The notes beneath the pieces were generated by a model. The model searched no databases, was not told the DNA's origin, and was given only the letters and a program-made list of their open reading frames with translations. Shown here in pieces: positions 5,131 through 8,771 of a stretch of DNA of 37,495 nt; within the stretch, counting starts at the first letter, position 1, and each line of letters starts with the position of its first letter. The position numbers and the translations under genes were made by a program. This DNA is from Planctomycetota bacterium (GTDB lineage Bacteria; Planctomycetota; Phycisphaerae; Sedimentisphaerales; Anaerobacaceae). Location of the stretch: NCBI GenBank assembly GCA_023135865.1, contig JAGLSG010000033.1, forward strand, positions 1 to 37,495, written 5' to 3'.

Positions 5131-5279
5131 AATTTAGAATTGAGAATGAAGAATTAAAAAATTGGACGCAGATTACGCTGAAATAAATAGTACCAAAAAT
5201 CTGCGTTAATCAGCGCAATCAGCGTCAGGAAAACGATTCAAAATTCTAATTTTCAAATATTCAAAACTGACAGCTTTGC

Positions 5280-5351
5280 TGTCATGCTGAGTGTAGCGAA
5301 GCATCTCAACCATTCAAATGGCAGAGACCCTTCGCTTCGCTCAGGGTGACA
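5280..5351. repeat. Palindromic repeat (GAGCGAAGCGAAG family)
   Basis: The left arm TGTCATGCTGAG...GCGAAGCATCTC and the right arm GAGACCCTTCGC...CTCAGGGTGACA are reverse complements over about 28 bp with few mismatches, separated by a short spacer. The central CTGAG/GCGAAG words recur in other gaps of this window. It would form a long cruciform or RNA hairpin. Confidence 0.75.
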
Positions 5352-5432
5352 CTGGCGTGTCATTTTGGTAATTGGATATTGTTTAGGATTTAGAATTTTC
5401 CATTTTCAATCAAAAACGGCATAAATGAATTA

Positions 5433-5485
5433 AGAATTGAGAATCCTTCGACCCCGCTCAGGACAGGTGCAGAATTGAGAATTAT
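5433..5485 (+). repeat. Dispersed AATCCTTCGAC..CGCTCAGGACAGG repeat, copy 1
   Basis: This about 50-bp unit (GAATTGAGAATCCTTCGAC, CGCTCAGGACAGGT, AGAATTGAGAATTA) recurs almost unchanged at 10094-10146, and its core recurs at 8535-8554. All copies lie between genes. Confidence 0.7.
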
Positions 5486-5827
5486 GGAATCCCTTCGGGA
5501 TGGATTTCAATCAAAATCGTCATAAAAATTGTCAAATTTAGGGGTAATTTTTTGGAAAATATGGTGTTTTTTGGGGCTTGAAAAAGTGATTTTCAGTGGT
5601 GTTTCTTTGTTTTTGATACTGAAAAGCCGGTTTTGCGTCAATCAAAACTGCGAAATTCGGCAAAAAGTGGCCAAAAAGTAGTCGTTTTTGAGCGTTTTTT
5701 GTCAATTTTGGTCAAAAATGAGCTGGAATTTACCGTTTTTTGTCAAAAAAGAACCAGTTTTTTCAGGTAGTATGCCGTTTTCAATCGATTGTTTTTGAAC
5801 AGTTGCTGGTTGCTAATACCTGCGATT

Positions 5828-5874
5828 TGTCATTTCGAGCGTAGCCGAGACACGAAGCGAAGCGGAGAGCCCCG
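5828..5874. repeat. Dispersed repeat TGTCATTTCGAG...GAAGCGGAGAG
   Basis: This variant of the TCATTGCGAG/GCGAAGCG repeat family is followed by CCCCGAAGGG, an echo of the CCCTTCGGG palindromes. It lies just upstream of the defence-like gene. CGAGACACGA recurs in the gap before ftsK (around 21249-21262). Confidence 0.55.
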
Positions 5875-5933
5875 AAGGGAAATCTATTTTTAATTAACCA
5901 CGGATTTTTCGTATTGCGTTGTGCGTATCTCGA

Positions 5934-5961
5934 TTGACAATTGTATAAATTTAAGGATAAT
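5934..5961 (+). promoter_or_regulatory. Putative promoter of the nuclease-nSTAND gene
   Basis: A perfect TTGACA (5934-5939) is followed after 16 bp by GATAAT (5956-5961), giving a predicted start near 5968 and a 30-nt leader before the ATG at 5999. The ribosome site is weak (GGAAAG well upstream). Confidence 0.5.
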
Positions 5962-5998
5962 ACTATTAAAGTAAATTGGAAAGCTTGTTATAAAAAAT

Positions 5999-8245
5999 AT
6001 GAGTTATGATTTCTCTCAATTAAACGATAAAGAATTTGAAATTATTGTTACCGATCTGCTTTCAGTAGTTTTCAACAAACGAATTGAAAGATTCAAACAT
6101 GGTAGGGATGGGGGGGTTGATGGAAGATTCTACTCCGACACAAACCAAGAAATTATAATCCAGAGTAAACATTATTTGAAATCTGGATACAAAGCATTAT
6201 TATCCACCCTTAGAAAAGAAGTAATCAAAATTAAAAAGTTAAAACCAGAAAGATATATACTTGTTTCATCTCTACCGTTATCAAGAGATAATAAAAAAGA
6301 GATTAAAAATGTACTTAACCCTTTTGTCAAAATGGATAACGATATTTTTGGACAAGAAGATTTAAACGACATCCTTTCTCAAAACCCAAAAATCGAAGAA
6401 AAACATTTCAAACTCTGGTTTTCTAGTACAACAGTTTTTGGAATATTACTACACAATGCAATTAAAGGAAGAAGTGAATTTGAGATTGAGCAAATCAAAA
6501 AAAGAACTCTAAAATATGTTCAAACTCAAAATCACTCCAAAGCCCATGAAATTCTCAAAAATAATAACGTAATTATTATTTCTGGTGAACCTGGAATCGG
6601 CAAAACAACTTTGGCAGAAAATCTTTGTCTAGAATATGTAGCAAATGATTATGAGTTTTTAGATATCGAAGAGTCTTTAAGAGAAGCTGAAAGTGTATAC
6701 ATAAGAGGCAAAAAACAGATCTTTTATTTCGACGACTTCCTAGGTAGTAATTATTTTGAAGCAATAGAAAATAAAAAAGATTCACATATCATCAAATTCA
6801 TTGAGAGAATTAAAAATGATAATACTAAGAAATTTATTTTAACCTCTAGAACAAACATTTTAAATAGTGGTTTGTTGCATAGCAGCATTTTTTCAACCCA
6901 AAAAATCCGTAAAAATGAATTTCTTCTTACTATTGACAGATTAGACAATTTAGAAAAAGCTAGAATTCTATATAACCATATATGGTTTAGTGAATTAAAT
7001 GAAGATTTTATGGAAGAAATTTATCGAGACAAACGATACCATCAAATCATTAAACATGAAAATTTTAATCCAAGATTAATAGAATTTATTACGGATAATG
7101 ACAGATTAAATGTTGTCTCAGATGAATACTGGTCTTACATATCAAAAACTTTAGATAATCCAAAAGATATTTGGAATAATTGTTTTAAAAACCAAAATAA
7201 TGCGTTTGTTCGAAGTCTTGTTATTTTGACAGTTTTCAATGGTAGCCAAATTACTGAAGAAGAACTAAGAAAAAGCTTCAATGCATTGATCGACATAGAA
7301 AACCTGAAGAATCCATCACACACAGAAAAAGATTTTAATTCGACTGCTCAATTGGCTACAAAATCATTTCTAAGTCGAAATAAATCAATCTATAGTCATA
7401 TTTATTCCTTATTTAACCCATCAATCGCTGACTATATATTAAACGAATATAACAAAGATGTAAGGAAGTTAATTAACATATTTAAATCACTATATACCAT
7501 TAAATCCTTAGAAATGCTAATTTCTCTAGGAAAAAGTAAAATAGTTTCCGCAAGTGACTTAGTCAAAATTCTTGATGCGCTTTTTACGGATGCTTTTCCA
7601 AAAGACAAAACTCTTGATTATCTCATTTTCATTTCACACCTATACATAGATGACGCAGCCAAAAATGATAGAATTATTTCATTTTTGAGAAAAATTATAA
7701 ATAAGCCACAAACTATTGATGAGTTTTCTAAATTTTTATGTTTACTCTCAAAGTTTGAGAAAAAATTAAAAATAACAAATTTCGATTTTTTAGTGGGAAC
7801 ATTCAAAGATAGATATTTGGATGACAACGAACTAAAAAATTTAATAATCTTTTTTGATGATAAACCTATTACTTCTTCCAAGTTATTAGATGAACTAAAA
7901 GAGCAAATCAACAGTTACATATATGGAAGATTAGAGGATATTGCGGCAGATATTGACTTATCACCATATCTTAATTTCAATGGATATGATGACGATGTGG
8001 ATGTTGATGAAGATTCTATATTTCAATATTTGACAGATTCACTACTATCAGAAATGAAGGGTGTGTGTCCCAATCTAATTGGAAAATTCAATCTTGATAT
8101 TCCAGTCCTAGCAAGCCAAGTTGATATTGACAATTTAGTATCAAACTATCTTAGCTCAATTCAATATGAATCAGAATGGGATAAAGAATATGGTAGCTAT
8201 AGAAATTTTGATAATGATATAGACGATTTATTTGAGCGTACATAG
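5999..8245 (+). CDS. Restriction-endonuclease-like/nSTAND3 NTPase, probable anti-phage protein
   Basis: This 748-residue protein starts with a PD-(D/E)XK nuclease-like domain: EFEIIVTDLLS, then GRDGGVDGRF (D37, D41) and IIIQSKHY (Q55, K57), the layout of Mrr-type restriction folds. A STAND-type P-loop NTPase follows, with Walker A GEPGIGKTT (196-204), Walker B FYFDDFLG (242-249) and the sensor-like FILTSR near 280. The remaining about 400 residues are helical and probably repeat-like, ending IDDLFERT. This matches my recollection of the nSTAND3 family (REase-nSTAND3 fusions). Related Avs proteins sense phage proteins and then activate the nuclease; that role is inference here. The gene is far richer in A/T than its neighbours, uses AT-ending codons throughout, stands alone and is flanked by repeats, which points to horizontal transfer. 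Confidence 0.82.
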   Translation: MSYDFSQLNDKEFEIIVTDLLSVVFNKRIERFKHGRDGGVDGRFYSDTNQEIIIQSKHYLKSGYKALLSTLRKEVIKIKKLKPERYILVSSLPLSRDNKKEIKNVLNPFVKMDNDIFGQEDLNDILSQNPKIEEKHFKLWFSSTTVFGILLHNAIKGRSEFEIEQIKKRTLKYVQTQNHSKAHEILKNNNVIIISGEPGIGKTTLAENLCLEYVANDYEFLDIEESLREAESVYIRGKKQIFYFDDFLGSNYFEAIENKKDSHIIKFIERIKNDNTKKFILTSRTNILNSGLLHSSIFSTQKIRKNEFLLTIDRLDNLEKARILYNHIWFSELNEDFMEEIYRDKRYHQIIKHENFNPRLIEFITDNDRLNVVSDEYWSYISKTLDNPKDIWNNCFKNQNNAFVRSLVILTVFNGSQITEEELRKSFNALIDIENLKNPSHTEKDFNSTAQLATKSFLSRNKSIYSHIYSLFNPSIADYILNEYNKDVRKLINIFKSLYTIKSLEMLISLGKSKIVSASDLVKILDALFTDAFPKDKTLDYLIFISHLYIDDAAKNDRIISFLRKIINKPQTIDEFSKFLCLLSKFEKKLKITNFDFLVGTFKDRYLDDNELKNLIIFFDDKPITSSKLLDELKEQINSYIYGRLEDIAADIDLSPYLNFNGYDDDVDVDEDSIFQYLTDSLLSEMKGVCPNLIGKFNLDIPVLASQVDIDNLVSNYLSSIQYESEWDKEYGSYRNFDNDIDDLFERT

Positions 8246-8362
8246 AATTAGTATAGTATTTAATCGATTTTGTATGTTTCATATTTCCAGCCCAATTTAG
8301 GGACGATAAACATCACGCATCATATAAAATACCCCTCCTTGACAGGAGGGGCTCTGTTGGGA

Positions 8363-8424
8363 ACTAATCACGAAATACGAAATCTGTGCTTCAAAAAGCC
8401 GGCAATTCCTGTATAATCAATCCG
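8363..8424 (+). repeat. Direct repeat, copy 1 (ATACGAAAT...TGTATAATCAATC)
   Basis: The block TCACGAAATACGAAAT, then CTTCAAAAAGCCGGC, then AATTCCTGTATAATCAATC matches 8636-8705. The last 19 bases are identical in both copies and contain TATAAT (8412-8417). Copy 1 is not next to a gene. Confidence 0.65.
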
Positions 8425-8534
8425 CAACGAAAGTTAGAAAAGTGCGAAGGGTGCTAAAAACGCCTCGCAATGACAGAAAAATGGATACCTGCCTTCGCAG
8501 GTATGACAAAATGAGTGTTGCCACAGCCACATCC

Positions 8535-8554
8535 ATTCGACTACGCTCAGGACA
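8535..8554 (+). repeat. Dispersed ATTCGACTACGCTCAGGACA core
   Basis: This is the core of the repeat also seen at 5433-5485 and 10094-10146, here without the flanking GAATTGAGAAT segments. Confidence 0.55.
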
Positions 8555-8635
8555 AGAGTGCTGGGGCTAAACAAAAAATAAACCCTGCCATTAAACAAAC
8601 CCCACCAAAGTGTTGGTGGGGCTAACCGATTACGC

Positions 8636-8705
8636 ATCACGAAATACGAAATACGCTTCACGAAATCGATGTTTCAAATAATCGGTAATTCCTGTATAAT
8701 CAATC
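8636..8705 (+). promoter_or_regulatory. Direct repeat, copy 2, carrying the putative der promoter
   Basis: A perfect TATAAT (8695-8700) is preceded after 17 bp by TTTCAA (8672-8677). Transcription would start about 65 bp upstream of der. The block duplicates 8363-8424. Confidence 0.45.
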
Positions 8706-8771
8706 AGGTACAACAAAACGAAAATCAGTGTAATCTGCAATTAAACAAAATAAAAATTAGGCAATTAAAAT

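Follow-up and report, generated by a model that had tools for sequence, protein, structure and literature searches.

The window (i.e. the whole analysed stretch of 37,495 nucleotides) belongs to a draft genome of 94.5% completeness, in which it is contig 57. Positions 5999-8245 of its forward strand are occupied by a single open frame of 748 amino acids with an ATG start and zero internal stops, exactly where a gene had been predicted; the antisense strand of this segment has stops throughout. Upstream of the gene are found an acetylglutamate kinase, PEPCK and a sigma-54 activator, and downstream Der/EngA, an ORF without assignment, CdaA, a WYL regulator, DnaN and GyrB. The neighbourhood (PEPCK and the sigma-54 activator on one side, Der/EngA on the other) is thus a housekeeping one, as originally described, and the window copy of the gene lies outside any defence island. 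The features of the locus are as follows.

5934..5961, forward strand: sigma-70-like promoter TTGACA-16-GATAAT, the ATG lying 37 nt further on (consensus match only, at 11/12 positions, the top score in the region).
5999..8245, forward strand: coding sequence, Mrr nuclease - nSTAND3 NTPase - putative helical C-terminal sensor, PDC-S73 family (ORF, Pfam and PADLOC).
5999..6418, forward strand: Mrr-type PD-(D/E)XK nuclease domain, residues 1-140, with E14, D37, D41 and Q55-x-K57 (Pfam, conservation and model).
6515..6988, forward strand: nSTAND3 NTPase, residues 173-330, with Walker A GEPGIGKT (196-203), Walker B FYFDD (D245-D246) and R284 (PF20720 and conservation).
6989..7453, forward strand: STAND arm or winged-helix-like region, residues 331-485, with H353 (21/22 homologues), P358-R359 and NPS-x-x-D (P474, S475; D478 in 21/22) (conservation, and alignment of NLR/CED-4 NB-ARC folds over residues 156-510 or so).
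7454..8203, forward strand: putative sensor, alpha-helical, repeat-like and fast-diverging, residues 486-735 (conservation of 1.2-1.7 bits).
8219..8233, forward strand: conserved C-terminal motif I741-D-D-L-F745, of pattern [ILV]-x-x-[LMI]-F (22/22 homologues).

As a whole, the protein matches the PADLOC model PDC-S73 (PDLC05079) with 819.8 bits, from residues 1-747 of the protein to positions 1-751 of the 752 of the model. Both PDC-S73 and nSTAND3 were matched by all 14 of the aligned homologues scanned, and Mrr_cat by 12 of them.

In base composition, the gene is clearly richer in A/T than its surroundings, as was expected from the first inspection: its G+C content is 28.6% (0.286), vs. a mean of 43.4 ± 2.0% in the 20 other ORFs of the window (z = -7.5), and its GC3 is 22.8% vs. 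40.7% (z = -5.3). The gaps on either side (5131-5998 and 8246-8771) both contain short imperfect repeats. The clearest of these, ATCACGAAATACGAAAT, is present only twice in the whole assembly, at 8367 and 8636, so that the description of the gaps as repeat-dense is only mildly true. Since both copies lie downstream of the gene, flanking repeats were rejected as the boundary of a mobile element, and no integrase, transposase, att-like pair or clear attachment repeats were seen at the ends of the interval. Between the gene and der (8331-8623), the minus strand carries several strong hairpins that end in T-rich tails, and terminator-like sites number seven in the whole scanned region vs. 1.5 by chance.

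Concerning the N-terminal domain, Pfam places Mrr_cat at residues 7-71 (7.7e-5, 23.2 bits for a gathering cut-off of 21). The residues singled out in the original prediction as those of an Mrr-like nuclease, D37, D41, Q55 and K57, are kept in 22/22 homologues, and E14 in 21/22. The next domain is matched by nSTAND3 (PF20720) at residues 173-330 with an E-value of 8e-50 (169 bits vs. a gathering cut-off of 27.2), and K202 of Walker A and D245 of Walker B are also present in 22/22 homologues, which bears out both the proposed comparison with PF20720 and the claim that the two Walker motifs are intact. The invariant positions comprise D37, D41, Q55, K57, K202, D245, R284, H327, P358, R359, P474, S475 and F745, while E14, H353 and D478 have one deviating row each. 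As D37, D41, Q55, K57, K202 and D245 do not vary among the 22 homologues, these motifs are not due to chance. The nuclease module taken separately (about the first 160-195 residues) matches the Argonaute-linked proteins Aga_REase-TIR and Aga_TIR of PADLOC, with 147 and 104 bits, so that the effector serves more than one defence context.

A full-length model, built from a 10-sequence alignment, has a mean pLDDT of 80.4 and a pTM of 0.55. Its predicted alpha-beta N-terminus is followed by a P-loop NTPase and then by an arm, and the C-terminus is helical. Its nuclease part follows the alpha-beta-beta-beta-alpha-beta order, with a low pLDDT at residues 34-50 (the active-site loop); the model thus does not show the lack of a PD-(D/E)XK fold that would have counted against the original prediction. 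When the model was compared with the PDB by Foldseek, ranks 1-5 were taken by the Avs4-portal complex 8dgf (2.2e-8), EfAvs5, the PaAvs5 filament and Avs3, in agreement with the Avs-like architecture initially suggested. With VIA-align, archaeal STAND ATPases, plant NLRs and CED-4 reached Z scores of 16-17, their alignments covering approximately residues 156-518. The alignment between Avs4 (chain 2-506) and residues 1-509 of the model had a Z of 11.7 and an rmsd of 12.2 over 411 aligned residues, the high rmsd being probably caused by differing domain orientations; among the matches listed, Avs4 is the one that covers both the nuclease and the NTPase. At the sequence level, a PDB search with the gene product returned generic P-loops only.

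The C-terminal part is of a different nature. Conservation among the 22 homologues is about 1.9-2.8 bits per block over the nuclease and the NTPase and 1.2-1.7 bits over residues 481-740, with a sharp rise at the last residues. Since solved STAND folds can be aligned with the model up to residue 510 or so, and the STAND core ends at about residue 485-518, the putative sensor would comprise about 230-260 residues, and not the approximately 400 first proposed. Folded alone, the C-terminal 269 residues reached a pLDDT of 72; Foldseek found no PDB fold match to this part at E<=0.001, and only generic alpha-solenoids were obtained (Z<9). A rival view is that the protein is an Mrr-like type IV restriction enzyme, its nuclease and STAND ATPase cutting modified foreign DNA without any protein sensing. 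Such an enzyme would account for the similarity to Mrr_cat and for the annotation of plasmid relatives as 'restriction endonuclease'. However, Pfam detected no modified-base reader domain, the NTPase is of the STAND type and not a translocase, and the C-terminus diverges as expected of a protein sensor, all of which makes this explanation very unlikely.

The sequence following the hypervariable region ends in a short conserved motif, which is the least expected feature of this PDC-S73 gene. The pattern [ILV]-x-x-[LMI]-F occurs within the last 40 residues of 22/22 proteins vs. 11% of the 40-residue windows across the preceding 200 residues, and its terminal phenylalanine (F745) is invariant even though the approximately 250 residues ahead of it are hardly conserved. 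It seems to be an undescribed feature of PDC-S73 proteins, in which it may act as a latch or docking peptide. Two forms of this tentative idea, which is possible but on the doubtful side, can be put forward: the tail would either be latched on the nuclease/NTPase core or be the place where a conserved host partner docks, and sensing would free or occupy it. If true, the activation logic would be unlike that of Avs1-4. The last block has a pLDDT of 76 in the full-length model and the tail falls below 50 when the C-terminus is folded alone, a drop that weakly hints at a packing of the tail against another domain, the two runs having used differing alignments (10 and 5 sequences). In PaAvs5, also an nSTAND3 protein, immunity is abolished by changes in Walker A and also by deletion of the last predicted helix, so the conserved PDC-S73 tail is worth testing, and its invariant motif provides a precise mutational target.

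Two other readings of the tail were rejected. The beta-clamp binding motif has Q at its first position; this position is always I, L or V in the PDC-S73 homologues, and canonical clamp binding by IDDLF was therefore discarded. Nor does the tail appear to be a general trait of nSTAND3 proteins, as judged from one control, a DUF4062-nSTAND3-HEAT repeat protein of the same phylum, from which it is absent. This protein (L012 958-3255, genome G262) shares the NTPase family with the gene and differs from it in both effector and sensor.

The distribution of the gene is sporadic. It is absent from all 36 other genomes of the same family, and among 24 other genomes of the order it was found in two: G053, with a full-length copy of 54% identity, and G038, whose copy (23%) has a broken nuclease frame. 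Across 392 genomes of the phylum, about five strong matches were obtained besides the window copy, which is far from the core gene that would have contradicted the original prediction; the 72 of 392 genomes with 'matches' were not retained as holding family members, these being mostly short P-loop matches at E>1e-7. In the tree, the window copy, G053 and a Parcubacteria-binned contig form one clade (100/100), and G403, G324 and G435, which belong to the window's own class, are in a separate clade.

Relatives of the gene were also observed on 55 plasmid records, of which 31 are predicted to be conjugative, on two fecal phage scaffolds and on several viral or prophage contigs; a single-protein scan of viral sequences with the gene product found nothing. 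One relative adjoins an integrase, another is directly downstream of repABC on a plasmid, and one is near recombinases on a conjugative plasmid. Horizontal transfer of the gene is thus well supported by its relatives on plasmids and phage contigs, and the acquisition first proposed is in line with the deviating G+C content and the absence from the 36 genomes of the family. The G+C content of the relatives is below that of their flanks in most hosts, from which it follows that A/T-richness is a family trait.

These data bear on two other explanations. The same machine could serve in competition between elements, its sensor recognising conjugation or replication proteins of rival plasmids and satellites instead of a lytic phage, as the plasmid records, the predicted conjugative ones among them and the positions next to repABC and near recombinases might suggest. 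Nevertheless, anti-phage genes, too, are commonly found on plasmids, and prophage carriage together with the Avs-like fold fits phage defence at least equally well, so that we regard an anti-plasmid role as unlikely. The second explanation is that of a decaying or non-defensive acquired gene (e.g. selfish toxin-like cargo) with no present immune role in its host. It would be compatible with a lone gene of strongly deviating composition and with the existence of two relatives whose breaks fall between or within the nuclease and the NTPase: the copy of G038 has lost its nuclease frame (L003 527-2930), and that of a Priestia plasmid is split into 228 and 522 amino acids (L039 6998-9335). Yet the window copy is intact over 748 codons with all its motifs kept, and a low G+C content that recurs in most hosts is no mark of decay; this explanation is hardly probable at all.

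Three relatives have particular surroundings. The one on a Prosthecochloris plasmid (L037 3550-6482) has a diversity-generating retroelement at a distance of about 2 kb, with Avd, a reverse transcriptase and formylglycine-type proteins. On a viral contig (L044 5348-8283), a phage CI-type repressor gene ends within the relative, the overlap being 4 bases (ATGA), which suggests co-transcription with this lysogeny repressor. The Parcubacteria-binned relative (L004 724-2667) has an OLD/AriA-like AAA-TOPRIM gene immediately upstream, with which it makes up a small defence cluster.

The chromosomal site itself was compared with that of a genome of the same genus (G001), in which argB, PEPCK and Der, carried by one 9-kb contig, are 91-93% identical in DNA to those of the window; an identity of 96% was also recorded for Der between the two. 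There, the stretch between PEPCK and Der lacks both the sigma-54 and the nuclease-STAND genes and holds two opposite-strand genes instead, i.e. an unrelated pair (L092 3754-5683, contig C258) made of a 162-aa DarG-C-terminal-like gene overlapping a 488-aa HD-domain gene with a weak dGTPase match, possibly a toxin-antitoxin or defence pair. In G022, from the same family, the sigma-54 gene comes after PEPCK. Given this difference in content between G001 and the window, the PEPCK-Der interval varies between genomes of the genus and seems to be a place where one or another candidate gene of defence or toxin type is acquired. It thereby offers one small chromosomal site with different candidate defence genes in two genomes of the same genus.

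We consider it likely that the gene encodes, on its own, an immune receptor that acts inside the cell and is of the NLR/STAND type of bacteria. By analogy with Avs4, Avs5 and NLRs, the protein would probably rest as an inactive monomer, until its variable helical C-terminus binds a protein made by an invader, whether a phage or a different mobile element. Binding would lead to nucleotide exchange in nSTAND3 and to oligomerisation, and the oligomer would gather the N-terminal Mrr-type nuclease domains for DNA cutting; destruction of the invader DNA, the host DNA or both would then stop the infection (abortive infection). Gao et al., whose work is summarised in PMC12724215, found that the large terminase is sensed by Avs1-3 and the portal by Avs4. 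The sensor of the gene is unrelated to the Avs sensors by any test made, and neither trigger should therefore be assumed; a new one, as first proposed, is possible. As a compact (about 750 aa) and widely transferred single-gene nuclease receptor, in which active sites are invariant and the sensor is hypervariable, the protein would be a good test case for the recognition of invaders by small bacterial NLR-like proteins.

With regard to known systems, PDC-S73, a single-gene phage defence candidate, is the closest: its architecture is the same as that of the gene, which it matches over the full length, so the original view of a system without assignment is not supported in that form. Judged by its sequence, the gene is a further member of this already catalogued anti-phage candidate family, presumably Avs-like in its working and not assigned to Avs. 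Among the papers searched, none mentions PDC-S73 by name, and no experimental test of any of its members was found. The tripartite plan of effector, STAND NTPase and C-terminal sensor is common to the gene and to Avs (AVAST types 1-5), although the helical C-terminus of the gene has no assigned repeat class. No Avs profile was listed by PADLOC at E<=1, an absence from a list that is weak evidence, and neither phmmer nor the 60 best profile matches yielded an Avs chain, which is weak evidence as well. Avs4 (the portal receptor of 8dgf), the best Foldseek PDB match, aligns from the N-terminus to residue 509; however, it has 1534 aa vs. 748 for the gene, the identity is about 13-15%, and the large Avs4 sensor is missing in the gene, so that portal recognition is not to be assumed. 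Avs5 (SIR2-nSTAND3-repeats; PaAvs5 and EfAvs5), to which the second and third Foldseek matches belong, has the same Pfam NTPase, and PaAvs5-1, at about 828 aa, is similar in total length; its effector is SIR2 whereas that of the gene is an Mrr nuclease, and the searches run showed no sequence-level match to Avs5 chains. With the Argonaute-associated REase-TIR proteins, only the nuclease module is common, the gene being devoid of a TIR or Argonaute-linked part. Finally, Rousset et al. 2022 (PMC9122126) described, in the antiviral hotspots of P4 satellites, STAND NTPase proteins that carry an Mrr_cat nuclease at the N-terminus and repeats at the C-terminus, to which the gene is likened by description and not by sequence. 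Since the family is present in PADLOC and Mrr_cat-STAND proteins were reported by these authors, the gene is not a new kind of system.
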